Of a stretch of 64,000 bases of DNA, positions 24,883 to 52,179 are shown in pieces. The stretch covers positions 247,581 to 311,580 of the forward strand of contig NZ_LN913006.1 in NCBI RefSeq assembly GCF_001487165.1, in the 5' to 3' direction. The DNA comes from Blautia massiliensis (ex Durand et al. 2017). GTDB taxonomy: Bacteria; Bacillota; Clostridia; Lachnospirales; Lachnospiraceae. The notes beneath the pieces were generated by a model. The model made no database searches. It was given only the letters and a program-made list of their open reading frames with translations, and was not told where the DNA came from. The position numbers were made by a program, and so were the translations under genes. Numbering within the stretch: the first letter of the stretch is position 1; each line of letters opens with the position of its first letter.

Positions 24883-25782
24883 ATGAACTTAAATCAGCTC
24901 ACATATTTTGTGACTCTTGCCCAGATCGAAAATTATACCAGAGCAGCCAAGAGGCTGGATATAACCCAGCCAAGCCTGAGCCATGCGATCTCCAACCTTG
25001 AAAAGGAACTGCAGGTTCCACTTTTTGAGCGTCACGGAAGAAATGTGACCATGACCAAATACGGGGAAATGTTTCTGAAATATGTGCAGGACTCCTTACA
25101 TATCCTGAATCTTGGTGTGGAGAGGATACAGGAAGCGGCAAGGATTCCGGGAGGAAGTATTTCCATCGGGTATATCCATACCCAGGGACGCAGATTTATC
25201 CCGGAGCTTGTCCGGGGGTTCCTTAATGAACAGGAGGGGAAGAAGATTGATTTCCGTTTTCAGAATGCAGCTACCGGAAGTCTGATCCGGGGTCTGAAGG
25301 AAGAGAAATTCGACGTGATCTTCTGTTCCCGGGCAGAGGGCGAGAAGGAGATCAGCTTTGTGCCGGTGTCAGAAGAAAAGCTGGTGGCTGTAGTGCCTGA
25401 GAACCATGCTCTTGCAGACCGAAATTCAGTGACCATAAAAGAGCTGGGGCAGTATCCGCAGGTGACCTTTACCCCTGCAAGCGGACTGTATTTTGTGATC
25501 CGGGAGCTTTTCGAAAAGGAAGGACTTTCACCGGAGACGGCCTTTGAGGTAGAAGAGGATGGTGCACTGGCAGGTATGGTGGCGGAGGAATTTGGTGTAG
25601 GCATTGTGCCGGATGTACCGGTGATCCATACACTTCCTGTGAAAATCTTAAATATTGAGAATCTGCACTGCCGTCGTTACATATACATGGGAATGATGAA
25701 AAACCGGTACCCAAGTGCGCTTGTGGAGCAGTTCCGGGATTATATATACAAGCATTACCGGATCTATGAAGTGATACAGTAG
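24883..25782 (+). CDS. LysR-family transcription regulator 1
   Basis: 299 residues. The N-terminal winged helix (LNQLTYFVTLAQIENYTRAA, then ITQPSLSHAISNLEKEL) is followed by a periplasmic-binding-protein-like ligand domain from about residue 90. It is a clear paralogue of the regulator at 27039, with the same opening and the same TQPSLSHAIS helix. It lies just upstream of the shikimate cluster and probably belongs to it. A hairpin (AGGCAG/CTGCCT) lies in the gap before it. Confidence 0.93.
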   Translation: MNLNQLTYFVTLAQIENYTRAAKRLDITQPSLSHAISNLEKELQVPLFERHGRNVTMTKYGEMFLKYVQDSLHILNLGVERIQEAARIPGGSISIGYIHTQGRRFIPELVRGFLNEQEGKKIDFRFQNAATGSLIRGLKEEKFDVIFCSRAEGEKEISFVPVSEEKLVAVVPENHALADRNSVTIKELGQYPQVTFTPASGLYFVIRELFEKEGLSPETAFEVEEDGALAGMVAEEFGVGIVPDVPVIHTLPVKILNIENLHCRRYIYMGMMKNRYPSALVEQFRDYIYKHYRIYEVIQ

Positions 25783-25805: not shown

Positions 25806-25844
25806 AAAAAATCTCTGCTTCTGTAAAAGGGCGGAGATTTTTTT
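25806..25844 (+). terminator. Terminator after LysR 1
   Basis: AAAAATCTCTGC pairs with GCGGAGATTTTT (one G-U), followed by further T. Confidence 0.85.
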
Positions 25845-26031
25845 GACACAGATCCTGGCGTGAATACTATAGCAATTCCATAAATTACTGCAAACAATTC
25901 AGTCCATCATAGCGTGAAGTCCGGCGTCGGATATCTTTGCCGTGCCTAAAAATTATAAAAATAATCTATAGATCACATGCGTAAATTCAATGAAAATTTG
26001 GGTTGAGATAAAAATGACCAGTTGGTATAAT
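25843..26031 (+). promoter_or_regulatory. Control region of the mutase/kinase gene with LysR-type box
   Basis: The 326-base gap holds two promoters. TTGACA (25843-25848) with TACTAT (25865-25870) has a 16-base spacer. TTGAGA (26003-26008) with extended TGGTATAAT (26023-26031) has 17. Between them AATCTATAGATC (25963-25974) matches boxes at 28103 and 39200, and the 15 bases 25955-25969 (ATAAAAATAATCTAT) are identical to 39192-39206. This is a likely LysR site about 30-40 bases upstream of the second -35. Confidence 0.65.
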
Positions 26032-26108
26032 AAGGACAGATACTTGATTTAAAGTGATAAAGTGATGACGGAAATCCGTAATAAAATGAACGAAGTAAAG
26101 GAGATATT

Positions 26109-26897
26109 ATGAACCAGTTAGAAGTATTAAGAGAAAGCCTTGGACAGTGCGATGAGATCATCCTGGACGCACTCCTTATGAGAAACAGGATCGTAGAGGA
26201 CATCATGGTATACAAGGAAGCTAACGATCTTCCGGTACTTCAGCCGGAACAGGAGGCGAAGCAGAAAGGATGGCTGGAAGCCAGAATGGAAGGCAGACGT
26301 CATAAGAAAGAGGTCAATGATGTTTTTGCAAGCATCACACAGAACAGTAAAAGGATCCAGTCCAGAAATCTTTTCAATTATAATATCTTCCTGATCGGAT
26401 TTATGGGAGCTGGTAAATCTACGATCTCCGATTATCTGAAGAATGTTCTTGCCATGGATGTTGTGGAGATGGATCAGTGTATCGTGGAGAGACAGGGAAT
26501 GAGCATTTCCGATATCTTTGAGACTTACGGTGAAGAGTATTTCCGTGAGCTTGAGACAAATCTTCTGATCGAGATGCAGTCCAGATCTAATGTTGTAGTA
26601 TCCTGTGGCGGTGGTGTTCCGATGCGGGAGCGCAATGTTACCGAGATGAAAAAAAATGGCCGTGTTGTACTTCTGACTGCAAAGCCGGAAACTATTCTGG
26701 AACGTGTAAAGGATAATCATGACCGTCCTTTACTTGAGAACAACAAAAATGTTTCATTTATCGCTGATCTGTTGGAAAAACGTCGCGCGAAATATGAGGC
26801 AGCAGCAGATATAGTTGTTGAGACAGACGGAAAGAGTGAGCTTGAGATCTGCGAGGAGCTGATCCACAGACTTCGTGAGGCAGAGGCAAATAAATAA
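26109..26897 (+). CDS. Chorismate mutase-like / shikimate kinase fusion
   Basis: 262 residues, two domains. Residues 1-85 are an AroQ-type helical domain resembling chorismate mutase (LRESLGQCDEIILDALLMRN). Residues 90-258 are a shikimate kinase: Walker A GFMGAGKST, the substrate Asp in VEMDQCI, FRELET, VVSCGGGVP, and the lid DRPLLENN. The kinase residues look intact. In the mutase domain Arg8, Arg25, Lys36 and Glu49 match the E. coli active site, but the position of Arg51 is Gln48 and that of Asp48 is Gln45, so it may be weak or regulatory. AAAGGAGAT precedes the ATG. It lies between the two LysR genes. Confidence 0.9.
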   Translation: MNQLEVLRESLGQCDEIILDALLMRNRIVEDIMVYKEANDLPVLQPEQEAKQKGWLEARMEGRRHKKEVNDVFASITQNSKRIQSRNLFNYNIFLIGFMGAGKSTISDYLKNVLAMDVVEMDQCIVERQGMSISDIFETYGEEYFRELETNLLIEMQSRSNVVVSCGGGVPMRERNVTEMKKNGRVVLLTAKPETILERVKDNHDRPLLENNKNVSFIADLLEKRRAKYEAAADIVVETDGKSELEICEELIHRLREAEANK

Positions 26898-26929
26898 CTG
26901 CTGATCATAAAACAGAATAGTTTTACATA

Positions 26930-26996
26930 TAAAAGGGACAGCTGTCCGATAAACCGTACAGAAACAGAACGGAGATCGGGCAGCTGTCCTTTATGA
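26930..26996. terminator. Bidirectional terminator
   Basis: AAAGGGACAGCTG and CAGCTGTCCTTT pair with one bulged base, with an inner TCCGAT/ATCGG. It separates the fusion gene from the convergent LysR 2 gene. Confidence 0.65.
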
Positions 26997-27038
26997 TATA
27001 AAAGATCCGGACCATATATTTGCAGATGAACAGATCGT

Positions 27039-27947
27039 TTAATTGGTCTTATAAAAAATCTCCCTCGAGGTTTCCTCGATCACAAATTTTTTAAAGGCTT
27101 CCACGACCGGCGGATGGTATACATCCTTCAGCATGGCCATGTAGAAATTCCGCTGCCAGCTTGGAGAGACAAGGGGCAGGATCTTAAGGTTCAGAGAGTG
27201 AAGGATCGGGATATCCGGTGCAATGCAGATGCCGAAATCATTGGCAACAAATCCTGCGGCAACCTGATCCTCATCGATCTCAAAAGCCACATCCGGGTAC
27301 TGACCGATGCTCTTAAATAACTGGTCAATGATCTGGCGGAGACCGCTTCTCTTCTTGAAGATGATCTGCTTGTATGGAAGCGTTTCTTCCAGATGAATCT
27401 CGGATTTCTCAGCAAGAGGATGTTCCGGCGGAACGATGACGACCAGATCCTGCTTGGCAACCGGAATAAATTCGATCAGTGGTTCGTCGTCAAATTTGGA
27501 ACAGAAGCCGATATCGTATTTCTTTTCTTTCAGTCCGGTGAGGATATCGCCGGTAAGCACCTTATCGCAGAACAGATTGAAATGGATCTGTTTTCCCTTA
27601 TTGGCATTAAGAAAGCTGCGGATGATCTTTGGCATAAAGTCAACACCCAGAGTTCTGAGAAAAGCCACATCGATCTGTCCTTCTCCCTTTCCTGCAAGCT
27701 GGAGACCGTTTACAGAGGAATCCAGCCGGTTCAGGGTTTGTTCCACATCCTCCAGAAAAGACTTGCCATATTTGGTGAGAGAAACATTCCGTCCGTTTTT
27801 TTCAAATAATTTCACTCCAAGCTCTTCCTCCAGAGAAGAGATCGCGTGACTTAGGCTGGGCTGTGTGATGGCCAGAACATCCGCAGCTTTTGTATAATGT
27901 TCCAGATGAGCCAGTGTCACGAAATAGCGAAGATGATACAGATTCAT
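27039..27947 (-). CDS. LysR-family transcription regulator 2
   Basis: 302 residues with an N-terminal winged helix (LYHLRYFVTLAHLEHYTKAA, ITQPSLSHAISSLEEELG) and a ligand domain. It is divergent from the TIM-barrel gene at 28234 across a 286-base region holding a matching box, the classical arrangement in which a LysR protein controls the divergent operon and itself. A hydroaromatic acid is a plausible inducer given the neighbours; this is inferred from position. Confidence 0.94.
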   Translation of the reverse strand: MNLYHLRYFVTLAHLEHYTKAADVLAITQPSLSHAISSLEEELGVKLFEKNGRNVSLTKYGKSFLEDVEQTLNRLDSSVNGLQLAGKGEGQIDVAFLRTLGVDFMPKIIRSFLNANKGKQIHFNLFCDKVLTGDILTGLKEKKYDIGFCSKFDDEPLIEFIPVAKQDLVVIVPPEHPLAEKSEIHLEETLPYKQIIFKKRSGLRQIIDQLFKSIGQYPDVAFEIDEDQVAAGFVANDFGICIAPDIPILHSLNLKILPLVSPSWQRNFYMAMLKDVYHPPVVEAFKKFVIEETSREIFYKTN

Positions 27948-28080
27948 TTTTCAATACTCCTTTCGTAAGTTTATCTGAATGTTTTACTTCGAACAGATCC
28001 CCGGTAAGTCTGACAGACATAAGAGATTTGCCGGGCCGTATGCAGTGACGGCGGCAATACGGCTGAATATGTTTTATATA

Positions 28081-28130
28081 GTATAACATGATATATTGAC
28101 AAAATCTATGGATTCTCCTGGTACAATCAA
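28081..28130. promoter_or_regulatory. Divergent control region with LysR-type box
   Basis: AATCTATGGATT (28103-28114) is an AATC-N4-GATT inverted repeat. On the plus strand TTGACA (28096-28101) and TGGTACAAT (28119-28127) are 20 bases apart, too long for unaided sigma-A use, and the box lies within the spacer. That fits an activator-dependent promoter. On the minus strand TTGTCA followed by TATATA 16 bases later could serve LysR 2. Confidence 0.55.
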
Positions 28131-28233
28131 TTTGTTTTGTATTTAACAAAGTTATATAATGCTTATAGAAAAAAGATACAAAATAATTTAAAAAAAACAA
28201 ATAAAATTATTTAAATTTTCAGGAGGAATTATC

Positions 28234-29073
28234 ATGTCAAAAGAATTTCCAATCACAATCAGTTCCTGGACACTGGGAGATCAGTGCAAATTTGAGGACC
28301 GTGTAAAAGCTGCCAAAGAGGCTGGCTATGAGGGGATCGGCCTGAGAGCAGAAACCTACGTAGATGCCCTGAATGAGGGACTTTTCGACGAGGATATCTT
28401 GGCGATCCTGGATAAATATGACATGAAGGTAACAGAGGTTGAGTACATCGTGCAGTGGGCAGAGGAGCATCGTTCCTATGAGCAGAAATACAAAGAACAG
28501 CTCTGCTTCCATATGTGTGAATTATTTAACGTAAAACAGATCAACTGCGGACTGATGGAGAACTATTCTGTAGAGTATACAGCACAGAAACTTCGTGAGC
28601 TTTGCCACAGAGCAGGCAAATACATCATCGGTGTTGAGCCAATGCCATACAGCGGAATCCCGGATGTGAAAAAGGGCTGGGCTGTTGTAAAAGCTGCTGA
28701 CTGCGGGAATGCGAAACTGATCCTTGATACATGGCACTGGGTAAGAGCAAACCAGCCGATCGAGCTTTCCGTACTTGAGGGAATCCCGGCAGACAAGATC
28801 GTATCCATCCAGATCAACGATGTATGGGAAAGACCATATGCAACAACGATCTTAAGAGATGAGTCCATGCATGACCGTCTTGCTCCTGGAACAGGAATCG
28901 GAACAACAGTACCGTTCGTAAAAATGATCAAAGAAAAAGGCATCAGACCAAATGCCATCGGCGTAGAGGTTATCAGCGATGCAAACCTTGAAAAAGGTAT
29001 CGGGTATGCTGCAAAACATACATATGAGAACACAAAGAAGGTACTGGAAGAGGCTTGGCCGGAAGTACTGTAA
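28234..29073 (+). CDS. Xylose-isomerase-like TIM-barrel enzyme
   Basis: 279 residues of the sugar-phosphate isomerase/epimerase (AP endonuclease 2) superfamily. Likely metal ligands are Glu in IGVEPMPYS, Asp and His in LILDTWHWV, and Glu in AIGVEVISD; VSIQINDVWE also fits the barrel. The superfamily includes 3-dehydroshikimate dehydratases as well as isomerases and epimerases. Its place first in an operon with shikimate dehydrogenase makes a hydroaromatic substrate likely, but the exact reaction is unproven. AGGAGGA precedes the start. Confidence 0.8.
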   Translation: MSKEFPITISSWTLGDQCKFEDRVKAAKEAGYEGIGLRAETYVDALNEGLFDEDILAILDKYDMKVTEVEYIVQWAEEHRSYEQKYKEQLCFHMCELFNVKQINCGLMENYSVEYTAQKLRELCHRAGKYIIGVEPMPYSGIPDVKKGWAVVKAADCGNAKLILDTWHWVRANQPIELSVLEGIPADKIVSIQINDVWERPYATTILRDESMHDRLAPGTGIGTTVPFVKMIKEKGIRPNAIGVEVISDANLEKGIGYAAKHTYENTKKVLEEAWPEVL

Positions 29074-29186
29074 TTAATATAAGAAACTAATATTTCAGAC
29101 GGGCCCCTGTTTCCGACGTCATACCGGTGACAGGGCGTTACCGTGAAAGAAACAAAAAGATTGTTTCAAAGGAAAGGAGAACGCAT

Positions 29187-31112
29187 ATGAAATTCAATGC
29201 GATGTTTCAGCCGATCGAGATCGGTCCTATGACAGTAAAGAATCGTTTTGTTGTTCCGCCAATGGGAAATAACTTTGCAAACACAGACGGAACAATGAGT
29301 GAGCAGTCCGCTGCATATTACAGAGAAAGAGCAAAAGGCGGATTTGGTCTGATCACCATCGAGGCTACTGTAGTTCACAAGGGCGCAAAGGGCGGCCCGC
29401 GTAAACCATGTCTTTATGACGACTCTACGATTGAGAGCTTCCGCAAGGTTATCGACGGATGTCATGCAGAAGGAGCAAAGGTGTCCATCCAGCTTCAGAA
29501 TGCAGGACCGGAAGGAAATGCAAAGAACGCAGGAGCACCGATCACAGCAGCAACCAGTATCCCGTCAGTGTGCGGCCGTGATATTCCGAAGCAGCTTACA
29601 ACTGAGGAAGTTTATGAGCTGATCAAAGGCTACGGTGAGGCAGCAAGAAGAGCTATGGAAGCAGGAGCAGATGCTGTTGAGATCCATATGGCACACGGTT
29701 ATCTGGTAAGTACCTTCCTCTCTCCGAGAACAAACAAAAGAGTGGATGAGTTTGGCGGATGCTTTGAGAACCGTATGCGTTTCTCCCGTCTGATCATCGA
29801 GGAAGTTAAAAAAGCAACACAGGGAAAGATTGCAGTTCTTGCAAGAATCAACTGTGCAGATGAGGTTCCGGGAGGACTTGATATCCACGACAGTGCAGCA
29901 ATCGCAGCATATCTGGAAAGCTGCGGACTGGACGGACTCCATGTATCCCGTGCCGTTCATATCAAGGATGAGTTTATGTGGGCACCGACTGTTATCCACG
30001 GTGGATTCTCTGCAGCAGAGGTTGAGGAGATCAAACGTGCGGTAAATATCCCGGTGATCACAGTTGGACGTTATACAGAGCCACAGTTCGCAGAACTGAT
30101 GGTAAAAGAAGGAAGAGCAGACCTTGTAGCATTCGGACGTCAGAGCCTTGCAGATCCGGCTATGCCGAAGAAAGCACAGGAAGAGCGTCTTGAGGATATG
30201 ACTCCTTGTATCGCCTGTCTTCAGGGCTGTGTTGCAAACATGTATGCAGGAAATCCGGTATGCTGTCTGACAAACCCATTCCTGGGTCATGAGGCAGAGC
30301 CGCTTGAGAAAGCGGAAGAGCCGAAGAAGGTTATGGTTATCGGTGGTGGTGTTGCAGGACTTTCCGCTGCATTTATCGCAAAAGAGAGAGGCCATGAGGT
30401 AACACTTTATGAGGCAGGAGATGTTCTCGGTGGAAACATGAGACTTGCTGCATATCCGCCGGGAAAAGGTGACATCACAAACATGATCCGCAGCTACATC
30501 CATCGCTGTCAGAAGGATGGCGTTAAGATCGTGATGAACTGTGAGGTAACTCCGGAGCTTATCAAAGAAGAGAAGCCGGACAGCGTGATCATTGCCACCG
30601 GTTCCAAGACTCTGATCCTTCCGATCGAGGGAATCGACAATCCGGCTATCATCCACGGCTCTGACCTTCTGGATGGCAAGAGAGCAGCAGGCAAAAAGGT
30701 TCTCGTTGTCGGCGGTGGAATGGTTGGATGCGAGACAGCTGCATTTTTAGGCGAGCAGGAGCATGATGTAACTGTTATCGAGTTCCGTGATACCGTAGGT
30801 GCAGACGTGATCCACGAGCACAGAGTATATCTGATGAAGGATTTCGAGGACTACGGAATCAAGGAGATCACCGGAGCAAAGGTATGCAAATTCTATGAAG
30901 ACGGGGTAGAATATGAGACCGCTGACGGAGTACGTCACGAGTCAAGAGGATATGATTCTGTGATCCTTTCCATGGGATTCCGCAACTACAATCCTCTGGA
31001 AGAGAAGATCAAAGACCTTGTACCTGAGACACATGTGATCGGAGATGCTATCCGTGCAAGACGTGCACTGGATGCAACAAAAGAGGCTTATGAGGTAGCT
31101 TCCAGGATCTGA
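29187..31112 (+). CDS. OYE-type FMN/FAD/4Fe-4S oxidoreductase (enoate reductase-like) 1
   Basis: 641 residues with the architecture of 2,4-dienoyl-CoA reductase, 2-enoate reductase and BaiCD. An N-terminal FMN barrel (MFQPIEIGPMTVKNRFVVPP, HMAHGYL, FLSPRTNKR) is followed by a C-x2-C-x3-C-x11-C iron-sulfur motif beginning CIACLQGC near residue 345, then FAD (VMVIGGGVAGLSAAFIAKERG) and NAD(P) (VLVVGGGMVGCETAAFLG) domains. Such enzymes reduce C=C bonds conjugated to a carbonyl or carboxyl group. It is second in the plus-strand shikimate operon. GGAAAGGAGA precedes the ATG at 29187. Confidence 0.92.
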   Translation: MKFNAMFQPIEIGPMTVKNRFVVPPMGNNFANTDGTMSEQSAAYYRERAKGGFGLITIEATVVHKGAKGGPRKPCLYDDSTIESFRKVIDGCHAEGAKVSIQLQNAGPEGNAKNAGAPITAATSIPSVCGRDIPKQLTTEEVYELIKGYGEAARRAMEAGADAVEIHMAHGYLVSTFLSPRTNKRVDEFGGCFENRMRFSRLIIEEVKKATQGKIAVLARINCADEVPGGLDIHDSAAIAAYLESCGLDGLHVSRAVHIKDEFMWAPTVIHGGFSAAEVEEIKRAVNIPVITVGRYTEPQFAELMVKEGRADLVAFGRQSLADPAMPKKAQEERLEDMTPCIACLQGCVANMYAGNPVCCLTNPFLGHEAEPLEKAEEPKKVMVIGGGVAGLSAAFIAKERGHEVTLYEAGDVLGGNMRLAAYPPGKGDITNMIRSYIHRCQKDGVKIVMNCEVTPELIKEEKPDSVIIATGSKTLILPIEGIDNPAIIHGSDLLDGKRAAGKKVLVVGGGMVGCETAAFLGEQEHDVTVIEFRDTVGADVIHEHRVYLMKDFEDYGIKEITGAKVCKFYEDGVEYETADGVRHESRGYDSVILSMGFRNYNPLEEKIKDLVPETHVIGDAIRARRALDATKEAYEVASRI

Positions 31113-31256
31113 TCTGCCAGTCGCTGATCGTATTGATACAAAAGAAAATAACTATCCGATAAACCGGACAGTATAAAGATTAAAAAGATGGCCCGACAGA
31201 CATCGGAGAAAAATAATCCGGTGTCTGACAGGGGAAAATGCAGGAGGTAAAAAGAA

Positions 31257-32138
31257 ATGGAACAGAGAATTAAAGGAACAACTGGTTTACTTGCACTGAT
31301 CGGAAGCCCTGTAGGACATTCCGGATCCCCGGCTATGTACAACTTCAGCTTCCAGTACCATAACCTGGACTATGCTTACATGGCATTTGATATCAAAGAG
31401 GATCAGGTTCCGGCAGCTCTTGATGCAATGCGTCTGTTCAAAATGAGAGGCTGCAATGTAACCATGCCTTGCAAGAACAAAGTAGCTCAGTGTGTAGACG
31501 AGCTTTCACCGGCAGCAAAGATCATCGGCGCTGTAAACACCATCGTAAATGAGGATGGAAAACTTGTTGGACATATCACAGACGGTATCGGATTTGTCCG
31601 CAACCTGAAAGAGCACGGTGTTGATGTAAAGGGCAAAAAGATGGTAGTCCTCGGAGCAGGCGGTGCAGCTACAGCCCTTACTGTACAGTGTGCCCTTGAC
31701 GGAGCTGCATCCATCGCAATCTTCAACCCTGACGATCCATTCCTTGACAGAGCAAAAGGAACTGCTGAGAAGCTTGCAAAAGAAGTACCGGACTGCAAAG
31801 TAAGCGTATATTGCCTTGATGACCAGGACAAACTGAGAGAAGAGATTGCAAACGCAGATATCCTCGCGAACGGAACACTTGCAGGAATGAAACCACATGA
31901 TGACATCACACTGGTTGACAAATCCATGTTCCATAAGGATCTTGTTGTTGCAGACTGCGTATACAATCCGGCCGAGACAAAGATGGTAAAAGAAGCAAAA
32001 GAAGCAGGCGTGAAGCTTGCGGTAGGCGGAAAAGGAATGCTTCTGTGGCAGGGTGCAGCATCTTACAAGCTTTACACAGGTCTTGAGATGCCGACAGATG
32101 AGTACCAGAAATTCCAGGCTGAGAACGAAGGGAAATAA
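31257..32138 (+). CDS. aroE: Shikimate/quinate dehydrogenase (AroE/YdiB family)
   Basis: 293 residues. The substrate site shows LIGSPVGHSGSPAMYNFSF, the catalytic Lys in NVTMPCKNKV, and Asp in GHITDGIGFV. The nucleotide site is VVLGAGGAATALTVQCAL. The following FNPDDPFLDRA and NGTLAGMKP are closer to E. coli YdiB than to biosynthetic AroE, so oxidation of quinate or shikimate with NAD(P) is likely. A paralogue lies at 35993. It ends five bases before the MFS gene. Confidence 0.92.
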   Translation: MEQRIKGTTGLLALIGSPVGHSGSPAMYNFSFQYHNLDYAYMAFDIKEDQVPAALDAMRLFKMRGCNVTMPCKNKVAQCVDELSPAAKIIGAVNTIVNEDGKLVGHITDGIGFVRNLKEHGVDVKGKKMVVLGAGGAATALTVQCALDGAASIAIFNPDDPFLDRAKGTAEKLAKEVPDCKVSVYCLDDQDKLREEIANADILANGTLAGMKPHDDITLVDKSMFHKDLVVADCVYNPAETKMVKEAKEAGVKLAVGGKGMLLWQGAASYKLYTGLEMPTDEYQKFQAENEGK

Positions 32139-32143
32139 GAAAA

Positions 32144-33343
32144 ATGAGCCAGACAGGTAAGAAAAATTTAGTGATTACTTCTATCGCGCTGTATTTTACA
32201 TATTTCATCCATGGAATCGGAGCTTCCATCATGGGTCAGTACAAGCCGGAGCTTGCGGCTCACTGGGGAGCAAAGGCTTTAAGTGATGGAACTATGGATG
32301 TCAGCATGGTAGTATCTGTAATTGCCGCACTTGGACTTGGAAGACTGATCTCTCTTCCGTTTTCCGGTCCCCTGTCCGACAAATTCGGACGCAGATTAAG
32401 CGGAATCATCGGCGTAATCTGTTATGCAGCATACTTTATGGGAATCGCATTTGCTCCGTCTATGGGAGTTGCCTACGCCTTTGCCATTGTAGGCGGTATC
32501 GCAAACTCCTTCCTGGACACCTGCGTAAGCCCGACATGTATGGAGATTTATGTAAACAATCCTTCTGTAGCGAACCTGTTTACAAAATTCTCCATGTGTA
32601 TCAGCCAGTTTCTGCTTCCTTTCCTCATCGGATTTGTAGCAGCGGCGAATATGTCCTACAGAACCATCTTTATTGTTGCAGGTGCTGCGATCTTTATCGA
32701 TGGAATCCTGATCCTGTTCCTGCCATTCCCGGAGAGAAATACAGCAGGTACAGTAAAGAAAGAAAAAGCAAAATTAAAGATCACTCCTGCAGCTCTTGCA
32801 GCAATCCTCATCGGATTTACAAGCTCTTCTACATTCATGCTGTGGCTGAACTGTAACCAGGAACTCGGAAAGCTTTATAACTTAAGTGATCCTTCCAAGA
32901 TCCAGTCCTTTTATGCAGTAGGAACCTTTGCAGCGATCCTGTGTTCCTCTGTATTTATCAAAAAAGGATTGAAGGAGATCAATATCCTGATCATTTATCC
33001 GCTGATCTCTTTCATCATGCTGGGACTGTGTTACTTTATCCAGAATCCGACAATCTGTCTTATCGGTGGATTTGTGATCGGTTTTGCAGGCGCAGGCGGT
33101 GTGCTTCAGCTGGCTGTTTCCACAACTGCGGAGTTCTTCCCGGAAAACAAGGGAACTGCAACATCCATGGTCATGATCGCATCCAGCGTTGCGAACTACA
33201 CCATTCTGACACTGGCCGGCTACATTACAAAGACTGCCGGAACCAGTGCTCCGAGAATGATCCTGCTTCTCAATATGGCAGTGACATTCATAGGAATCCT
33301 TCTTGCACTGTTCGTTAAGATGAACCGTGGAAAAGAGGCTTGA
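32144..33343 (+). CDS. MFS transporter, YdiN/YdiM-like
   Basis: 399 residues with twelve hydrophobic helices. Several stretches recall E. coli YdiN/YdiM, which flank ydiB-aroD: ALYFTYFIHGIGASI, LGRLISLPFSGPLSDKFGRR, and FVIGFAGAGGVLQLAVSTT followed by AEFFPENKG. The start is five bases after the aroE stop. It probably imports the hydroaromatic acid used by this operon; the substrate is inferred from homology in memory and context. Confidence 0.85.
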   Translation: MSQTGKKNLVITSIALYFTYFIHGIGASIMGQYKPELAAHWGAKALSDGTMDVSMVVSVIAALGLGRLISLPFSGPLSDKFGRRLSGIIGVICYAAYFMGIAFAPSMGVAYAFAIVGGIANSFLDTCVSPTCMEIYVNNPSVANLFTKFSMCISQFLLPFLIGFVAAANMSYRTIFIVAGAAIFIDGILILFLPFPERNTAGTVKKEKAKLKITPAALAAILIGFTSSSTFMLWLNCNQELGKLYNLSDPSKIQSFYAVGTFAAILCSSVFIKKGLKEINILIIYPLISFIMLGLCYFIQNPTICLIGGFVIGFAGAGGVLQLAVSTTAEFFPENKGTATSMVMIASSVANYTILTLAGYITKTAGTSAPRMILLLNMAVTFIGILLALFVKMNRGKEA

Positions 33344-33445
33344 CTGAATCAAGAAAATCCCTTGGGATGAATATCCGTTTGACTACAGTAAAAAAAGTGA
33401 ATCATTGTATGGATACAGACAAAGATGACTGAATCTGTGCAAAAC

Positions 33446-33537
33446 AAAGTTCCAATTCGGGAACAATTCCCGGATTGGACTTTACCGTTTCTGAAAATGT
33501 TTGTTAATTAACAAACTTACAAAATAAAAGATACTAT
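33446..33537 (+). promoter_or_regulatory. Hairpin, 18-bp palindrome and promoter before the second permease
   Basis: A strong hairpin without T-run (33446-33484, arms around GGGAACAATTCCC) follows the MFS gene. Then comes the perfect palindrome GTTTGTTAATTAACAAAC (33499-33516). TTAACA inside it (33508-33513) and TACTAT (33532-33537) with 18-base spacing make a possible promoter, so a protein on the palindrome would block or modulate the -35. Confidence 0.55.
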
Positions 33538-33574
33538 ATATGTATTATCAAAAAAACGACAAAGGAGAATCGTT

Positions 33575-34957
33575 ATGGCACGTGCAGCAAGACAGCGAAG
33601 AGAAAACGAACTGCCCTACATTCCGTTTGGGCCATTTCAGATTCGTTTTCCGTTTATTCACTATAAAATTGAGTCCGTAGAGTTTATCCAGGGCCTGATC
33701 CTCGGGGTTACGGCACTGGCGGCGGTTCCTTATCTGGAACAATATCTGGGATTGCCTTATGAGCTGGCATGGAGCTGTGTGATCATAGAGACCATGCTGT
33801 ATATGCTACACAGCTTACTTGGTGATCCGGTTGTACCGGGATGGATCACACCGACCCTTCCGCTGACGATCGTATTCCTGGAAGGCTTCCCTATGGGAAA
33901 AGAACGTATCCAGGCAATGATCGCCCTGCAGATGCTGGTTGGTCTCGTGTTCATATTTATGGGCATCACCAAGCTTGCGGATAAATTTGTCCATGCAGTA
34001 CCAAATTCTGTTAAGGGTGGTATCCTTCTTGCTGCGCCGGTGACGGTTATGGCAGGACAGCTGGGAGAGGGCGGCAACATGCATAAGTATCCGCTGGCGA
34101 TCGTTGCCGGTGTAGGCCTTCTGATCCTGATCAGCTTTTCAGATAAATATCAGGAGAAGAGAAAGAACAACAAATTCCTGGATCTTGTTGCCAGGTATGG
34201 AAACCTTTTCCCGTATCTGATCGCCATGGTGGTAGGTCTTCTTGTAGGAGAGCTGGATGCGCCTGGTCTTGAGCTGGGAACTTTTATCAAGATCCCGCAG
34301 TTCAAAGAGATCATCTCACAGGTAAGTATCTTTGGTGTGGGAATCCCGCCGGTCTCCATGTTTGTCAAAGCGCTTCCTCTGGCACTTGTATGCTATGTTA
34401 TCGCATTTGGTGATTTTGTTACCACAGAGACACTGGTTACAGAGGCACGCCAGTCCAGAGATGATGAGTACATTGATTTCAATTCCAGCCGTTCCAACCT
34501 GGTCAGCGGCATCAGGAACCTGATCCTTTCCGTCATTGCCCCGTTCCCGCCGCTTTCCGGTCCGTTATGGGTTGGAATGACAGTATCTGTTTCCATCCGT
34601 TACAAGGAGGGAAAGAAAGCTATGAAGTCTCTGATCGGCGGTATGGCATCCTTCCGTATTGCAACGTTTTTAAGTGTGTTGATCATTCCGGTTGTAAGCT
34701 TCTTCCGTCCGATCTTCGGAGTCGGTTCCTCCATTACTCTGATGTTCCAGGCATTTGTCTGTGCAAGGATCGGTATGGATTACTGCAGAACAGACCGTGA
34801 CAAGATGATCGCAGGTGTTATGGCAGCGGTGCTTGCAACTCAGGGAACTGCATGGGCATCCGCATGGGCCCTGGCTGTAGGCTTCGGTCTGAATATCTTC
34901 CTTTCAAACTGGGACCCCAGAAAGAAAGAGGAGAATGCCATCGAGGATAAAAATTGA
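33575..34957 (+). CDS. NCS2/SLC23-like permease of unknown substrate
   Basis: 460 residues with many hydrophobic helices. FIQGLILGVTALAAVPYLEQ near residue 32, a long amphipathic middle, and AFGDFVTTETLVTEARQSRD followed by RSNLVSGIRNLILSVIAPFP recall the nucleobase/ascorbate (SLC23) and sulfate (SLC26) permease fold. The match to classical uracil or xanthine permeases is weak. Separate promoter, but inside the shikimate cluster, so a cyclic organic acid is a fair guess. AAAGGAGAATC precedes the start. Confidence 0.65.
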   Translation: MARAARQRRENELPYIPFGPFQIRFPFIHYKIESVEFIQGLILGVTALAAVPYLEQYLGLPYELAWSCVIIETMLYMLHSLLGDPVVPGWITPTLPLTIVFLEGFPMGKERIQAMIALQMLVGLVFIFMGITKLADKFVHAVPNSVKGGILLAAPVTVMAGQLGEGGNMHKYPLAIVAGVGLLILISFSDKYQEKRKNNKFLDLVARYGNLFPYLIAMVVGLLVGELDAPGLELGTFIKIPQFKEIISQVSIFGVGIPPVSMFVKALPLALVCYVIAFGDFVTTETLVTEARQSRDDEYIDFNSSRSNLVSGIRNLILSVIAPFPPLSGPLWVGMTVSVSIRYKEGKKAMKSLIGGMASFRIATFLSVLIIPVVSFFRPIFGVGSSITLMFQAFVCARIGMDYCRTDRDKMIAGVMAAVLATQGTAWASAWALAVGFGLNIFLSNWDPRKKEENAIEDKN

Positions 34958-34990
34958 TCAGAGGAAGAACAAAGATATAAAAAACAGAAA

Positions 34991-35033
34991 AAGAAGAAGT
35001 GTGCTGGATGGGTCAGCACACTTCTTCTTTTTG
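34991..35033 (+). terminator. Terminator after the permease
   Basis: AAGAAGTGTGCTG pairs perfectly with CAGCACACTTCTT, followed by CTTTTTG. The remaining gap to aroD is AT-rich with no gene. Confidence 0.9.
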
Positions 35034-35153
35034 TCATGAGATTTGTTGTTTTTAATTATTATTTTAATAGATTTGCTATTATGGGATTAAAATTGCAAAA
35101 ATTTGTTACATCAATTGGGTTTAAAAATTGGTTTATAATTCGCGTTCTGTTAC

Positions 35154-35176
35154 AAAAATCTACCGTAGATCCTTTT
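35154..35176 (-). terminator. Small hairpin after aroD
   Basis: ATCTA-CCG-TAGAT (35158-35170). On the minus strand it is followed by a short T-run, so it may end the aroD operon. Weak. Confidence 0.4.
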
Positions 35177-35193
35177 TATGGGAGGTCACAGGA

Positions 35194-35955
35194 TCACAGG
35201 CTTTTGTGGATAATGTCAAGAACCTGTGCAAGCTCGTTGACATTGATCTGTCCCGGTGCGGAAGCTTTGGTAGCTGCACCGAAGGTAAGGGCGGAACCGA
35301 AGGTTTCGCCAGCGAGACGGCTGACAACACCGGTACCTGCCATGGACATGGTAATGATCGGGCGGTCGGCGAACTGCTCGGACATTTCCAGCGTGGCACT
35401 TAAGAGTGTAAGCACGTCCTGTTTGTTTCTTGGCATAACAGCCATTTTCGGGATATCTGCGCCATAGTCCTGCATCATGCGAAGACGGCGCACGATCTCA
35501 TCCTTCTCAGGAGTTGCGTCAAAATCATGGTTGGAAGCGATGACCTTTACGCCATAGCTGTGTGCTTCCTGGATCATGCTTTTTACGATCTCCTCACCTG
35601 TGAAGGCTTCTACATCAATGAGATCTATATAGCCGCTTTTTGCGACAGCCATGTTGAGTGCTTTGTAAGCTTCGTTGGAGATCGCTTTTTCTCCGCCTTC
35701 TTTTGCAGTACGGAAGGTGAAGAGGATCGGAGTGTCCTTTAAAACGGTCTGGAGATCTTTTGCCACATCCAGAACCTTGTCTGTGTCAAAAACGTCCTCA
35801 AACCAGTCAACACGCCATTCCACAACGTCTACGGGGATCCTTGCGAAGGTCCCTGCTTCAAGGAGGATATCATCCTTTGTCTGTCCCACGATCGGGACAC
35901 AGATCTTCGGTCTTCCCTCTCCGAGTGTGATATTTCTTACCTGAACTGTTTTCAT
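35194..35955 (-). CDS. aroD: Type I 3-dehydroquinate dehydratase
   Basis: 253 residues, the length of class I Schiff-base dehydratases. Key residues are Glu in VEWRVDWFED, the catalytic His in SNHDFD and the Schiff-base Lys in PKMAVMP. It interconverts 3-dehydroquinate and 3-dehydroshikimate; type I enzymes work in biosynthesis and can serve quinate catabolism. It is last in the minus-strand operon, 37 bases after the YdiB-like gene, the same ydiB-aroD order as in E. coli. Confidence 0.96.
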   Translation of the reverse strand: MKTVQVRNITLGEGRPKICVPIVGQTKDDILLEAGTFARIPVDVVEWRVDWFEDVFDTDKVLDVAKDLQTVLKDTPILFTFRTAKEGGEKAISNEAYKALNMAVAKSGYIDLIDVEAFTGEEIVKSMIQEAHSYGVKVIASNHDFDATPEKDEIVRRLRMMQDYGADIPKMAVMPRNKQDVLTLLSATLEMSEQFADRPIITMSMAGTGVVSRLAGETFGSALTFGAATKASAPGQINVNELAQVLDIIHKSL

Positions 35956-35992
35956 AATGGTCCTTTCTGATACGACAGGAACAGATAGCAGT

Positions 35993-36871
35993 TTAGTCGT
36001 CGTATCTGATGTTAAGAATCTCTTTCATATGTTCGATCGGCATCGGTTCGCCGGTCCACAGTTCAAATGCAGCGGAGCCCTGGAAAAGCATCATGCCAAG
36101 GCCGTTCATTGTCTTGCAGCCAACTTCCTTTGCCATAGAACGCATAGCAGTTTCAAGAGGGGAGTAAGGCACGTCAACAACGATAAGCTCCGGGCGGAAG
36201 TAAGACTTGTCCGGAACAACGGACTGACCTTCCAGTGGTTTCATTCCAACACCTGTCGCATTTACGAAAATATAACTGTCAGCCATTTCTTTTTTCAGCT
36301 GGTCGAGATCAGCCAGATCATAGAGAACAGCATGGCTTGAAGTTCTGGTGTTGATCTTTTCTACCGTAGATACTGCACGGTCCCAGAATTCATCTTTGCG
36401 GTTGAAGATCACAATCTCGCCTACACCGTCAAGTGCTGCCTGGATCTCGATAGCAGTTGCGGCACCACCTGCACCTACGATGGTCATTTTCTTTCCGATG
36501 GCGTTGATGTTATTGTCTTTCAGTGCTGCCATAAATCCGATACCGTCTGTGATATGGCCTGTAAGATGACCATGATCATTAACGATGGTGTTTACAGCGC
36601 CGCACATTTCTGCTGCCGGTGAAAGCTCGTCAAGGTACTGGCCTACCAGAGTTTTGTTCGGCATGGAAACGTTGGAACCTCTCATTTTCAGAGTACGGAT
36701 GGCATTTACAGCATCCTCGATCTCGTCTGCACCAACCTCAAATGCAAGATATGCATAATCATAGCCAAGCTTTGCAAAAGCTTCATTCTGCATGGCAGGA
36801 GAGCTGGAGTGGCGGATCGGATATGCCATAAGACCAATCAGCTCGGTATGTCCTGTGATTCTTTCTGACAT
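35993..36871 (-). CDS. ydiB: Quinate/shikimate dehydrogenase, YdiB-like
   Basis: 292 residues, very like E. coli YdiB: ELIGLMAYPIRHSSSPAMQN at the N-terminus, KMRGSNVSMPNK with the catalytic Lys, GHITDGIGFM, the nucleotide site IVGAGGAATAIEIQAAL, and IFNRKDEFWDRA whose Asp suggests NAD use. Oxidises quinate and shikimate to their 3-dehydro forms. I use the ATG at 36871 because AGAGGAG lies nine bases upstream; an earlier ATG at 36889 itself overlaps that ribosome site. Confidence 0.92.
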   Translation of the reverse strand: MSERITGHTELIGLMAYPIRHSSSPAMQNEAFAKLGYDYAYLAFEVGADEIEDAVNAIRTLKMRGSNVSMPNKTLVGQYLDELSPAAEMCGAVNTIVNDHGHLTGHITDGIGFMAALKDNNINAIGKKMTIVGAGGAATAIEIQAALDGVGEIVIFNRKDEFWDRAVSTVEKINTRTSSHAVLYDLADLDQLKKEMADSYIFVNATGVGMKPLEGQSVVPDKSYFRPELIVVDVPYSPLETAMRSMAKEVGCKTMNGLGMMLFQGSAAFELWTGEPMPIEHMKEILNIRYDD

Positions 36872-37093
36872 GGTAATAACTCCTCTCATTGGTAAAATCT
36901 GGATGAAGATTTGTCTTTTTTAAACCTCCCACCACATAGATCTGAAGAAGCTGCGGACATTCTTCGGACGGCTGCGGGGGAGGAAGACGTGGAAAATCTA
37001 TGTTACGGATCACCGAGTGAACTGTAACAGATCTATATACACTTTCCGGTAGAAGGATTGAAGTGTTCCCGGAAAGGGTATAGCGGAAAAATA
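36872..37093 (-). other. Structured 222-base gap in the minus-strand operon
   Basis: No gene is seen. Several pairings occur: CCTCCC (36926-36931) with GGGAGG (36975-36980), CTGCGG repeats inside it, and TGTTAC with GTAACA (about 37011-37030). There is no clear T-run on the minus strand, so partial termination, processing or a separate promoter are all possible. Confidence 0.4.
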
Positions 37094-39091
37094 TTAAAGG
37101 TATCCTTTCTGCTCAAGAATGGTAAGGATATTGCGTCCTTCCTGGGTACCGTCAATGATTCGTCTTGCTCTCTGGCTGTCGCCGATGTTCATGATCTCAA
37201 CATCCTCAGAAGAAAATTCCTCTGTGAGGTTCTGGTAAAGCTGTCCCTGAGCTCTCATTCCGAGACATACGAAGCCGTACTCAAATGGAAGCTCATAAGG
37301 CTCACCGTCGCCCCTGACAAGGAAGGAAGAATCCTTAACCTCAAGGAGAGCAGTTTTTGTAAGCTGATGTACATTGTGTTTTTTCATCATGGTCTTTGTG
37401 TCATTTTTGCTTACCGGGTCAAGATCACGTCCGATCTGATCCATCATCTCAACGATAGAGATGTCTGCGTTTCTGTCAGCAAAGAATTCCACAACATCAA
37501 GACCTACAGCACCGCCGCCTACAACAACAACCTTTTTGCCTTCCAGATCCTTCGGAAAATCATTAATGTGGCTGATCATACCAAGAATAGAATAAATATT
37601 ATGGTTCTCGTTGTCAATACGATCCTTCAGTCCTGCAATCGGAGGCAGAAGCGGAGCGGAGCCGGTGGAGCTTACGATGATATTCGGATGGAACTTGCGG
37701 ATGTTTTCCGGTGTTCCTTCTGTGTTTTTGAAGATGTAAAGATTATCAAGCTGTTCAGCACGATGCATGAGATAGTGCGGGAAATCAGCAAGACGGTTCT
37801 TTGCAGGGATCTTTGAGATCAGAGATGCAAGTCCGCCAAGCTCATTGCCTTTTTCAAGAAGGAAGGTATTGCATCCAACCTCTGCGGCTGTACAGGCAGC
37901 TTCCAGTCCGGCAGTGCCTCCGCCGATAACGACCACGTTGCAGTTTTTATTTACATGTTTTTTCTTATATACATCGCCCTCAAGAACAGATGGGTTTACA
38001 GTACAGCGGATCGGACGGTTTACACCGATACGGTTTCCGGCACAGCCAACGTTACAGGAGATACATTTGCGGAGGTCACACTCATGACCTGTGGCAACCT
38101 TGTTTACCCATGCAGGGTCTGCAATCAGACCACGGCCCATACCGATCAGGTCTGCATCACCGTCAGCCAGGATACGCTCAGCAACCTTCGGGTCACGGAC
38201 ATTACCCATGGAGATACATGGCTTGTTGAATTTTTCTCTTACGGCCTTTGCCATGTAGGAACGCCATCCGTCCGGGAGATAATTTGCATCGATCTGGTAC
38301 TGGATGGAACCGTTAAGTCCGCAGGAAACATCAAAGATATCAACCTCTTCCTGAAGATAATCCAGGTATTCCAGAGTATCCTCCAGTGTATTTCCACCCT
38401 CCATCAGCTCATCCGCACTGAGACGGAGCATGATCGGGAAGAAAGGTCCTACCTGTTTCCTTACCTCATCGATGACCATACGGCAGAAACGGGTACGGTT
38501 CTCAACAGATCCGCCGAATTCATCGGTACGCTTGTTTGTGATCGGGGAGAGGAACTGACTAATCAGATAGGAGTGTCCTGCATGGATCTCTACCGCGTCA
38601 AAGCCAGCTGTCTGTGCACGTTTTGCAGCCTCACCGTATTTTTTTACGATGTGAAGAATCTCGTCTTTGGAAAGAGGACGCGGGATCTCGCCGCCTTCTT
38701 TGGATGGAACGTCAGATGCGGAAACCGGCTGCATGTTGATCCTGGAAGAAACAGCGGAAGCTCCGGCATGGTTGATCTGGATCGCGATCTTTGTTCCGTA
38801 TCTATGAATATTTTCACAGAATTTGAAAAGACGTGGCAGATAGTTGTCATGGTCGATGCGCAGCTGTGTGGTTCCGTTGGAGCCCTGCGGGGAATCGATG
38901 CTTGCGTTCTCTACGATGATGAGACCTGTGCCACCCTTTGCACGCTGCTCATAATAATTGATATGAAGAAAACTCATTTCGCCGTTCTGTTCACCGTAGT
39001 TGGTGCCCATCGGCATCATAACAATACGGTTCTTGATAGTCATATTTTTAACGGTTAATGGGGAAAAAATATGCGGATAATCATTCTTCAT
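37094..39091 (-). CDS. OYE-type FMN/FAD/4Fe-4S oxidoreductase (enoate reductase-like) 2
   Basis: 665 residues, same architecture as the protein at 29187 but clearly diverged. The FMN barrel shows IFSPLTVKNMTIKNRIVMMP, HAGHSYL and FLSPITNKR. The iron-sulfur motif begins CISCNVGC and its last Cys follows after twelve residues. FAD (CNVVVIGGGTAGLEAAC) and NAD(P) (KVVVVGGGAVGLDVVEFF) domains follow. It is first in the minus-strand operon with ydiB and aroD, so it likely acts on a hydroaromatic intermediate. AGGGAGG precedes the start. Confidence 0.92.
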   Translation of the reverse strand: MKNDYPHIFSPLTVKNMTIKNRIVMMPMGTNYGEQNGEMSFLHINYYEQRAKGGTGLIIVENASIDSPQGSNGTTQLRIDHDNYLPRLFKFCENIHRYGTKIAIQINHAGASAVSSRINMQPVSASDVPSKEGGEIPRPLSKDEILHIVKKYGEAAKRAQTAGFDAVEIHAGHSYLISQFLSPITNKRTDEFGGSVENRTRFCRMVIDEVRKQVGPFFPIMLRLSADELMEGGNTLEDTLEYLDYLQEEVDIFDVSCGLNGSIQYQIDANYLPDGWRSYMAKAVREKFNKPCISMGNVRDPKVAERILADGDADLIGMGRGLIADPAWVNKVATGHECDLRKCISCNVGCAGNRIGVNRPIRCTVNPSVLEGDVYKKKHVNKNCNVVVIGGGTAGLEAACTAAEVGCNTFLLEKGNELGGLASLISKIPAKNRLADFPHYLMHRAEQLDNLYIFKNTEGTPENIRKFHPNIIVSSTGSAPLLPPIAGLKDRIDNENHNIYSILGMISHINDFPKDLEGKKVVVVGGGAVGLDVVEFFADRNADISIVEMMDQIGRDLDPVSKNDTKTMMKKHNVHQLTKTALLEVKDSSFLVRGDGEPYELPFEYGFVCLGMRAQGQLYQNLTEEFSSEDVEIMNIGDSQRARRIIDGTQEGRNILTILEQKGYL

Positions 39092-39153
39092 CTGAAAAAA
39101 ACCTCCCTGGTTATTTTAAATAGAATCGTTTGTTTGTGTTAATTATATAACAG

Positions 39154-39211
39154 AATAATCTATAAAACTAATTCATAATACGAGCGATATAATAAAAATA
39201 ATCTATGAATT
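39154..39211 (-). promoter_or_regulatory. Two tandem LysR-type boxes upstream of reductase 2
   Basis: AATAATCTAT occurs twice, at 39154-39163 and 39197-39206, 43 bases apart, about four helical turns. The second extends to AATCTATGAATT (39200-39211) and is part of a 15-base identity with 25955-25969. The surrounding 357-base gap is very AT-rich and holds no gene. It separates divergent reductase 2 and the Nudix gene. Confidence 0.6.
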
Positions 39212-39448
39212 TTTGTATATCATCTTTCAGGCTGCAGGTACTTGCATGTTTATAATGTGAAAAAAACAGATGTAGAACGGTAACGCTAACTGGAAAATGG
39301 TATCGGATCCAGGGGTTTACATATATGATTTTAACGTGTTATCATAACAAATAAAAAAGATACAGAAAACGGAGAAACGGGCAGGATGAAACGGATCAAA
39401 TGTAAGACTGTATTTCCGCGTTCTGTAAAAAGACAGGAGATAGATAAA

Positions 39449-40262: not shown

Positions 40263-40628
40263 ATGGCGGATGAACATAGAGATCAGATCAGAATCGTACA
40301 GGAAACCGTAGCCGGTAAGGAGATCACATTTGCCCATATCATGGGTGGTCCGGCACCTATCATATATCAGAAGCTTGGACTGAATCCGCAGGTGGACTAT
40401 GGATCATCTGCAATTGGTATCATGAACATGACACCTTCCGAGTCTGCTGTGATCGCATCCGATATTGCTGTGAAGAGCGGTAATGTGTATCTTGGATTTG
40501 CAGACCGTTTTACAGGAACACTGATCATAACAGGAGAGATTTCCGATGTGCAGACTGCAATGGAGGAGATCGTGGATTATTTCCGTGATACTCTGGGATA
40601 TGTAGTATGCAATATCACCAAGAGATAA
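40263..40628 (+). CDS. eutS: Microcompartment shell protein, EutS/PduU type (1)
   Basis: 121 residues, circularly permuted BMC-domain protein. The EutS pattern is followed throughout: RIVQETVAGKEITFAHIMGG, YQKLGLNPQ, AIGIMNMTPSESAVIASDIA, GNVYLGFADRFTGTLIITG and a C-terminal ALGY-like helix. Hexamers of this type form flat facets of bacterial microcompartment shells, often with a central beta-barrel. It is followed 11 bases later by a second shell gene and then eutP. No encapsulated enzyme gene is next to it. Confidence 0.92.
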   Translation: MADEHRDQIRIVQETVAGKEITFAHIMGGPAPIIYQKLGLNPQVDYGSSAIGIMNMTPSESAVIASDIAVKSGNVYLGFADRFTGTLIITGEISDVQTAMEEIVDYFRDTLGYVVCNITKR

Positions 40629-40639
40629 GGAAGTGTACC

Positions 40640-41071
40640 ATGGAAGAACGGATAACAAAGGAAGAACTGCTGGAGAGGCTGTTTCATGATGATTATGAGA
40701 ACCTTAAGGGAAGAAGACTTCGGCTGACCCGGGTGAGAGTACCTGGAAAGGAGCTTTCCTTTGCACATGTTTTTACACCAAATGACAGATCGATATATGA
40801 GAATCTTGCGTTACATATCGGTGTTCATGAAGGTGAAGATCACAGAGGAGATGCCATCGGCATGGTCCGTGTCACACCCTGGGAGGCAATCGTGGTTGCG
40901 GCAGATGTTGCAGTGAAGGCAGCTCATGTGGAAGTAGGATTTATGGATCGTTTCTGCGGGACGCTGATCCTGACAGGCGGTTTTACGGAAGTGATGACAG
41001 CTGTGGAGGAAGTGGTACGATTTTTCCATGAGACATTGAAATTCGATGTTTGTAAGATCCACAGAAGCTGA
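40640..41071 (+). CDS. Microcompartment shell protein, EutS/PduU type (2), extended
   Basis: 143 residues. Same permuted BMC fold as its upstream neighbour (VRVPGKELSFAHVF, MVRVTPWEAIVVAADVAVKA, VEVGFMDRFCGTLILTG), but with an N-terminal extension of about 28 charged residues (MEERITKEELLERLFHDDYE) that could be a helical targeting or docking peptide. It may build mixed hexamers with the first protein. The ATG at 40640 follows AAGGAAGT. Confidence 0.88.
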   Translation: MEERITKEELLERLFHDDYENLKGRRLRLTRVRVPGKELSFAHVFTPNDRSIYENLALHIGVHEGEDHRGDAIGMVRVTPWEAIVVAADVAVKAAHVEVGFMDRFCGTLILTGGFTEVMTAVEEVVRFFHETLKFDVCKIHRS

Positions 41072-41089
41072 GGCAGGACGGGATAAAAA

Positions 41090-52125: not shown

Positions 52126-52179
52126 ACCAAGGTGGAGTGTAGATCTCTATCTGCATAGCTGTCCAAAGGGGGAAGAGGA

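Follow-up and report, generated by a model that had tools for sequence, protein, structure and literature searches.

We analysed a stretch of 64,000 nucleotides from Blautia massiliensis (the window; contig NZ_LN913006.1, positions 247,581 to 311,580), in which genes resembling those for quinate and shikimate use lie together with genes for two ene-reductases of the old yellow enzyme (OYE) type. The cluster is built of two facing operons. One encodes a TIM-barrel protein (called TIM below), the reductase OYE1, a quinate/shikimate dehydrogenase (SDH1), a major facilitator superfamily (MFS) importer and a NAT-fold permease, in this order, and the other encodes OYE2, a second dehydrogenase (SDH2) and the 3-dehydroquinate dehydratase AroD (Table 1). 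A chorismate mutase-shikimate kinase fusion (CMSK) and the LysR-type regulators LysR0 and LysR1 lie ahead of TIM. Protein families were assigned with Pfam and NCBIfam, and all genes named in an earlier note on this DNA, which had described a quinate/shikimate-type cluster, are intact open reading frames (ORFs) matching the expected families. That note had omitted the conserved permease, and of the two LysR genes that it counted in 25843..39211 only LysR1 lies inside, LysR0 ending before position 25843.

Table 1. Genes and other features of the Blautia cluster, in coordinates of the window.
Feature	Position	Strand	Evidence or remark
LysR0, LysR-type regulator upstream of CMSK	24883..25782	+	Pfam HTH_1 and LysR_substrate
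Operator-like palindrome TAATCTATAGAT 5' of CMSK	25962..25977		Motif scan
CMSK, chorismate mutase (N-terminal) and shikimate kinase (C-terminal) fusion	26109..26897	+	Pfam SKI 153 bits, CM_2 46 bits
LysR1, QuiR-like regulator, divergent from TIM	27039..27947	-	Best PDB match 5ted
Operator-like site AAAATCTATGGATT 5' of TIM	28101..28114	+	Exact pattern match in own genome
TIM, xylose-isomerase-like TIM barrel, QuiC2-like	28234..29073	+	Predicted dehydratase of 3-dehydroshikimate or its dihydro form
OYE1, FMN/4Fe-4S/FAD ene-reductase, architecture like 2,4-dienoyl-CoA reductase	29187..31112	+	Pfam Oxidored_FMN 273 bits, Pyr_redox_2 110 bits
SDH1, quinate/shikimate dehydrogenase, YdiB-like	31257..32138	+	NF009200 486 bits, cut-off 432
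MFS importer, YdiM/YdiN-like	32144..33343	+	Pfam MFS_1
NAT-fold permease	33575..34957	+	Foldseek match 7tak
Terminator-like hairpin separating the convergent operons	34988..35032		19 pairs
AroD, type I 3-dehydroquinate dehydratase	35194..35955	-	Pfam 269.5 bits
SDH2, quinate/shikimate dehydrogenase	35993..36889	-	NF001313 497 bits, cut-off 431
OYE2, second OYE-type ene-reductase	37094..39091	-	PF00724 278.6 bits
Two operator-like sites 5' of OYE2	39156..39214		Motif scan

Both dehydrogenases passed their NCBIfam cut-offs and have PDB relatives among the quinate/shikimate dehydrogenases (YdiB/AroE), SDH2 matching 3tnl with 402 bits. The genome as a whole has three SDH-type proteins and three shikimate kinase matches. 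The NAT permease matched no Pfam family above cut-off; its structural model, of a mean pLDDT of only 69, resembles the NAT transporter 7tak (37% identity, Foldseek E 7.9e-22). The hairpin between the operons has the longest stem among those listed, and the number of hairpins was not above chance (16 in 14.7 kb, against 12.5 expected in shuffles). Two features elsewhere in the window were also seen: beside the cluster, at 40263-41617, two BMC shell-domain proteins are followed by a PduV/EutP-like GTPase in a small microcompartment-like set, and at 51715-53433 an adjacent ORF pair resembles TnpA/TnpB of an IS200/IS605-type element, as judged by eye from the ORF starts.

OYE1 and OYE2, the only two PF00724 proteins found in the 3.7 Mb genome, share 33% identity and combine the FMN-FeS-FAD architecture of FadH with a histidine pair like that of YqjM, which we take to act at the carbonyl site; this YqjM-like pair is absent from E. 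coli FadH. In alignments to YqjM, the two histidines and a tyrosine were each found in 56 of 56 OYE1 sequences (H167, H170 and Y172, which are invariant, as are C341, C344, C348 and C360) and in 15, 14 and 15 of 15 OYE2 sequences. Both proteins differ from YqjM, FadH and BaiCD in that none of the 25 best NCBIfam models listed for either of them reached its cut-off.

TIM shares 57% identity with Listeria Lmo2234, which, judging from its operon membership and a paper title, is probably QuiC2. It is near QuiC1 among the structural neighbours listed, and E135, D165, H168 and Q193 align with those of QuiC1 (5hmq), in a weak alignment (E 0.11, or 1.7e-4 with the whole profile). E245 is invariant, and the metal-binding and catalytic residues of dehydroshikimate dehydratases of the QuiC2 class are present. 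TIM thus resembles QuiC1 and AsbF in fold and in its metal and histidine positions, and differs from them in being a single domain of 279 amino acids. Met137 stands at the place of AsbF His144, provided that E135 corresponds to AsbF Glu142 (both AsbF residues are listed in an excerpt of PMC9324987); QuiC1 also has no histidine there. The classical QuiC equivalog was tried and rejected for TIM (NF042435, 22.5 bits against a cut-off of 1200).

The genes around OYE1 were surveyed in a genome collection that yielded 529 relatives, the best 80 of which were kept. All counts refer to the 58 loci with at least 54% identity (L004-L061), many on short contigs; the other 22, at or below 39%, were left out. 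TIM was a neighbour in 48 of the 58 loci, the SDH family in 47 and a LysR gene in 45, followed by a first MFS family (41), the NAT permease (17), AroD (14), CMSK (9) and a second MFS family (5). The carriers belong to Blautia, Dorea, Anaerostipes, Anaerobutyricum, Claveliimonas, Megasphaera and others. TRAP genes were also seen with OYE1, a DctP-type family in 13 of the 58 loci (e.g., L036 and L038) and a DctM-type family in 11 (Pfam run on one member of each), and these are possibly an alternative TRAP importer. TIM itself was searched in two genome sets, one of 397 from the family and one of 398 from the phylum, each including our own genome. With 13 and 3 hits, respectively, in 15 distinct genomes, TIM is rare; OYE1, SDH1 and LysR1 were found within about 4 kb of it in all 15, several of which evidently overlap the organisms of the OYE1 survey. 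These results indicate a gene association beyond chance.

OYE2 follows the same genomes. It was found in 32 of the 397 family genomes (35 matches), being present in 12 of the 13 TIM genomes against 20 of the other 384 (Fisher p 1e-13, for related genomes with no correction for relatedness); one of the 12 copies in TIM genomes carries internal stops. We read 27 OYE2 loci with 28 copies, which together with four at TIM loci account for 32 of the 35 matches (G163, G352 and G005 were left out). AroD, an SDH or CMSK was nearby in 23 of the 27 loci, 17 having AroD or an SDH and 6 CMSK alone (L162, L165, L167, L170, L171 and L173); CMSK relatives were present in 10 overall. This survey for homologues beside unrelated pathways, a check proposed in the earlier note, mostly found none.

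In some Lachnospiraceae in which no TIM was found, a different kind of OYE2 neighbourhood was observed. OYE2-AroD-MFS clusters in L178:1-8800 and L161:4286-13555 also contain a creatininase-family hydrolase, two zinc alcohol dehydrogenases, another TIM barrel and TRAP genes, and that of L161 an HMGL-like lyase as well (Pfam was run on L178 and L161 only). By eye, L158 and L179 are similar, and L163 is so in part. These clusters are a candidate ring-cleaving route for hydroaromatic acids.

The TIM tree pointed to movement of the gene between lineages. TIM of Ligilactobacillus salivarius pairs with that of Eggerthellaceae (support 98/92), and the pair is nested in a clade of 25 rows, most of them Lachnospiraceae (100/99), which suggests transfer; the L. 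salivarius branch was flagged as long, and the fork directly above the pair is weaker (81/89). Within Blautia, TIM is 99% identical to that of one Blautia luti and one B. schinkii record, and OYE1 is 97 and 100% identical to OYE1 of such records. In Eggerthellaceae/Coriobacteriia, TIM and OYE1 were observed directly 3' of a NiFe hydrogenase operon (L031:3239-11923) and directly 3' of a hydrogenase maturation protease (L046:127-4240), which suggests hydrogen as the electron donor at these two loci.

The two operons also appear to share regulatory sequence. LysR1 has its best PDB match in 5ted, the Listeria protein Lmo0488 (149.8 bits), whose effector domain is described in excerpts of PMC11602165 and PMC9973260 as QuiR bound to shikimate. 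LysR0 and LysR1 are 44% identical; over its full length LysR1 is closest to the regulator beside the Listeria TIM operon (56%), and the regulator beside the L. innocua OYE2 operon is about 43% identical to both LysR0 (42.5%) and LysR1, so that identity settles only in part which regulator corresponds to which, including the QuiR orthologue. The 8-mer AAATCTAT, on either strand, occurs in 28 of 36 TIM upstream regions, and the best 8-mer of each of 20 shuffles, which kept only single-base content for these related loci, reached 9-12. The stricter ATCTAT[AG] was found in 20 of the 36 TIM and 7 of 15 OYE2 upstream regions. Besides the TIM site, the window contains two relaxed-motif sites 5' of OYE2, one, a palindrome, 5' of CMSK and one 5' of SDH2. 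These four sites compare with 0.106 expected in three regions, chosen as those already seen with hits, and with 0.176 over eight intergenic stretches of the cluster (0 of 2000 resamples either way). A search of the whole genome for AAAATCTATRDATT with at most one mismatch gave 41 hits, including TIM and OYE2 and most of them unexplained, against 8 for the reversed control. A third, unlinked SDH (G000:C4:358640-359503; L124:8641-9504) has a pair of these hits on opposite strands about 110-156 bases upstream, in the palindrome ATTCATAGAAAAAATCTATAAAT. The operator-like motif thus links both operons, CMSK and the unlinked SDH, which may reasonably be read as one putative regulon that includes three SDHs.

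Together, these results suggest, and we hold it probable with moderate confidence, that the locus responds to shikimate and serves the use of dietary hydroaromatic acids, with the ring as an electron sink. Its genes are orthologous to those of the two operons under QuiR control in Listeria, but in Blautia they are joined at one locus. The gene content and its conservation, this orthology, the histidine pairs, the metal-site residues and the shared motif are observed, and from them we infer every substrate, the order of the steps, the products and the regulation by shikimate in Blautia. The MFS protein, and perhaps the NAT permease too, would import quinate and shikimate, which SDH1 and SDH2 would oxidise to 3-dehydroquinate and 3-dehydroshikimate (DHS). 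AroD would interconnect these two, making DHS the branch point. DHS is a cyclohexenone, and it is proposed that the OYEs reduce it or a derivative, passing electrons from NAD(P)H to the C=C bond of DHS or of a later enone; by such a reduction the ring would become an electron sink. TIM could dehydrate DHS to protocatechuate, or the dihydro form to a hydroxy-enone that an OYE and an SDH would reduce further. The predicted products are reduced hydroaromatic acids (dihydroshikimate-like and dihydroxycyclohexanecarboxylate-like); protocatechuate may arise in a side branch, and CMSK could divert shikimate to chorismate. Precedents for such chemistry come from lactic acid bacteria. Whiting and Coggins reportedly found that Lactobacillus plantarum reduces quinate and shikimate to dihydroxycyclohexanecarboxylate. 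An excerpt of PMC13204703 (2026), citing earlier work, has lactic acid bacteria possibly converting quinic acid to shikimic and dihydroshikimic acid, with quinic acid as hydrogen acceptor, and one of PMC7427622 mentions dihydroshikimic acid from chlorogenic acid.

Several observations weigh against this interpretation. TIM is missing from 10 of the 58 OYE1 loci; three of these (L018, L053 and L061) are cut next to OYE1, and the seven intact ones have 54-65% identity, L051 sharing a contig with the TIM-bearing L046. Four of the 27 Lachnospiraceae OYE2 loci (L174-L177) have no shikimate genes in the stretch covered, which in L176 ends at OYE2 and in L175 is a whole contig of 7.2 kb, and none were seen around an OYE2 copy on a Paenibacillus plasmid. 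Neither the L. salivarius TIM nor a Klebsiella OYE2 has the motif in its upstream region. AroD is the sole type I 3-dehydroquinate dehydratase found in the genome, in which no type II enzyme was found and one 3-dehydroquinate synthase (AroB) is present; AroD should therefore also serve biosynthesis, and it is weak evidence of catabolism. The remaining points concern protocatechuate. Titles of Listeria papers, as cited in PMC11602165 and PMC9324987, speak of protocatechuate genes under QuiR control and call QuiC2 a DHS dehydratase, a function that would explain TIM without any reduction. The genome also contains one UbiD-type decarboxylase, elsewhere, and a branch from protocatechuate to catechol is therefore possible.

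These last points favour a protocatechuate route as in Listeria, in which the SDHs and AroD supply DHS to TIM, protocatechuate or catechol is the main product and the OYEs have a side or protective role. The identity of TIM to Lmo2234 and its structural nearness to QuiC1 fit such a route, as does the conversion of protocatechuic acid to catechol by some lactobacilli (excerpt of PMC7427622). For the same reason TIM, which the earlier note had taken as a pointer away from protocatechuate, is no such sign, its Listeria relative being probably QuiC2; the reductases, to which that note had given the same meaning, may still point that way. The constant nearness of OYE1 to TIM in the 15 TIM genomes argues against protocatechuate as the main product, as does the flavoprotein reductase that takes the place of OYE1 on an L. 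salivarius megaplasmid (see below). Met137 would also count against it, under the alignment given above and with the same reservation for QuiC1, and oxidation to protocatechuate would leave a fermenting anaerobe with surplus reducing equivalents to dispose of. We consider this route rather unlikely as the main one.

It is improbable that imported shikimate and quinate go chiefly to chorismate via CMSK, sparing aromatic amino acid synthesis. The motif upstream of CMSK and the presence of CMSK near OYE1 and OYE2 are in keeping with such salvage; AroB, however, is present, and pure aromatic-amino-acid salvage was rejected because it accounts for neither the OYEs nor TIM. Still less probable are free cinnamates or the cinnamoyl moiety of chlorogenates as OYE substrates, with the quinate half left to the shikimate genes. 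Quinate largely arrives in the gut as chlorogenates and OYE-type cinnamate reductases exist, but no cluster gene was assigned as an esterase with Pfam or NCBIfam, and both OYEs accompany shikimate genes. A role of the OYEs in reducing steroids, bile acids or bilirubin, with their place in this cluster due to chance, is hardly credible and was rejected: BaiCD is the best NCBIfam model of both and bilirubin reductase (long form) the third, but the scores (542 for OYE1 and 477 for OYE2 of 825, and 477 and 353 of 750, respectively) lie far below the cut-offs, and the neighbours are shikimate genes.

A more specific form of the electron-sink interpretation is possible, and we put it forward tentatively. 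OYE1 would reduce DHS, TIM would dehydrate dihydro-DHS and not DHS, and OYE2 with the SDHs would then give 3,4-dihydroxycyclohexanecarboxylate, a full reductive dehydroxylation in gut Firmicutes and, by transfer, in Actinomycetota and lactobacilli, with the ring-cleaving clusters of Lachnospiraceae lacking TIM as a sister pathway. If true, this would supply the genes so far missing for ring-reducing metabolism of quinate in the gut and in lactobacilli, and the pathway would act as an electron sink. Quinate makes up one half of the chlorogenic acid in coffee. According to an excerpt of PMC11602726 (Nature Microbiology 2024), enzymes for gut microbial quinic acid degradation are mostly lacking from knowledge, and of the two routes that have been proposed one oxidises quinic acid to protocatechuate and the other reduces it to hexahydrobenzoate. 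For both routes the locus provides a concrete candidate set of genes that is conserved and has named carrier organisms. In a literature search that covered few subscription journals, we recognised no paper assigning these OYE genes to quinate/shikimate metabolism, and found nothing on the spread of the system in gut Lachnospiraceae, on the connection of both OYEs to it, on the putative regulon or on the exchange of OYE1 for another reductase.

The closest known systems are the QuiR-controlled operons of Listeria, presumably qui1 and qui2. Both Blautia operons have counterparts there in the same order, TIM-OYE1-SDH1-MFS and OYE2-SDH2-AroD, with 57-66% identity. In L. monocytogenes the order is LysR-TIM-OYE1-SDH1-MFS (56, 57, 66, 58 and 61%, respectively), with a second MFS gene where Blautia has the NAT permease and two ATCTAT upstream of TIM, and the same record carries OYE2 (60%) elsewhere. 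In L. innocua it is LysR-OYE2-SDH2-AroD (OYE2 59%, SDH2 65%, AroD 60%), with TAGAAAAAATCTATGAAT, similar to the operator-like motif of Blautia, upstream of OYE2. Each Listeria operon has its own adjacent LysR and the OYE genes are far apart (976779 and 2064830 in NZ_CP030101.1), whereas in Blautia the operons face each other, with LysR1 beside TIM, LysR0 beside CMSK, and the NAT permease. NZ_CP030101.1 (2.9 Mb), like CP125156.1 (5.4 Mb), is a chromosome-size record listed as a plasmid in PLSDB. In Listeria, shikimate is reported to induce such genes, and the title of a Listeria paper names protocatechuate as the product. The gene-for-gene match and the Lmo0488 match of LysR1 bear out the quinate/shikimate use proposed in the earlier note.

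That note's comparison with the E. coli set ydiM-ydiN-ydiB-aroD also holds, the shared parts being a YdiB-type SDH (48% to SDH1), AroD (56%) and an MFS transporter (YdiM/YdiN, 33/30%). E. coli K-12 differs in having the regulator gene ydiP, and none of its genes in the 12 kb covered carries an annotation as OYE, TIM barrel or shikimate kinase. One Klebsiella record, with OYE2-SDH2-MFS (in two ORF pieces)-AroD-LysR and an OYE2 56% identical to that of Blautia, links the E. coli set to the Blautia cluster. The L. salivarius megaplasmid pMP118 has the order LysR-TIM-SDR-flavoprotein-SDH-AroD and shares LysR (42%), TIM (70%), SDH (60%), AroD (46%) and two MFS genes with the Blautia cluster. It differs in its extra SDR, its megaplasmid location and an FMN_bind/FAD_binding_2 flavoprotein in the place of OYE1, for which the best NCBIfam model was flavocytochrome c (207 bits, under the cut-off of 285); no OYE is annotated as such within 12 kb, the part of L. 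salivarius that was searched. This replacement of OYE1 by an unrelated flavoprotein reductase is the best comparative sign that the pathway needs C=C reduction and not OYE itself. Since core genes and order match the Listeria operons, there is good support for a quinate/shikimate cluster, though one of a kind already known: the Blautia system is a gut representative of the QuiR operons of Listeria, merged and with parts added.

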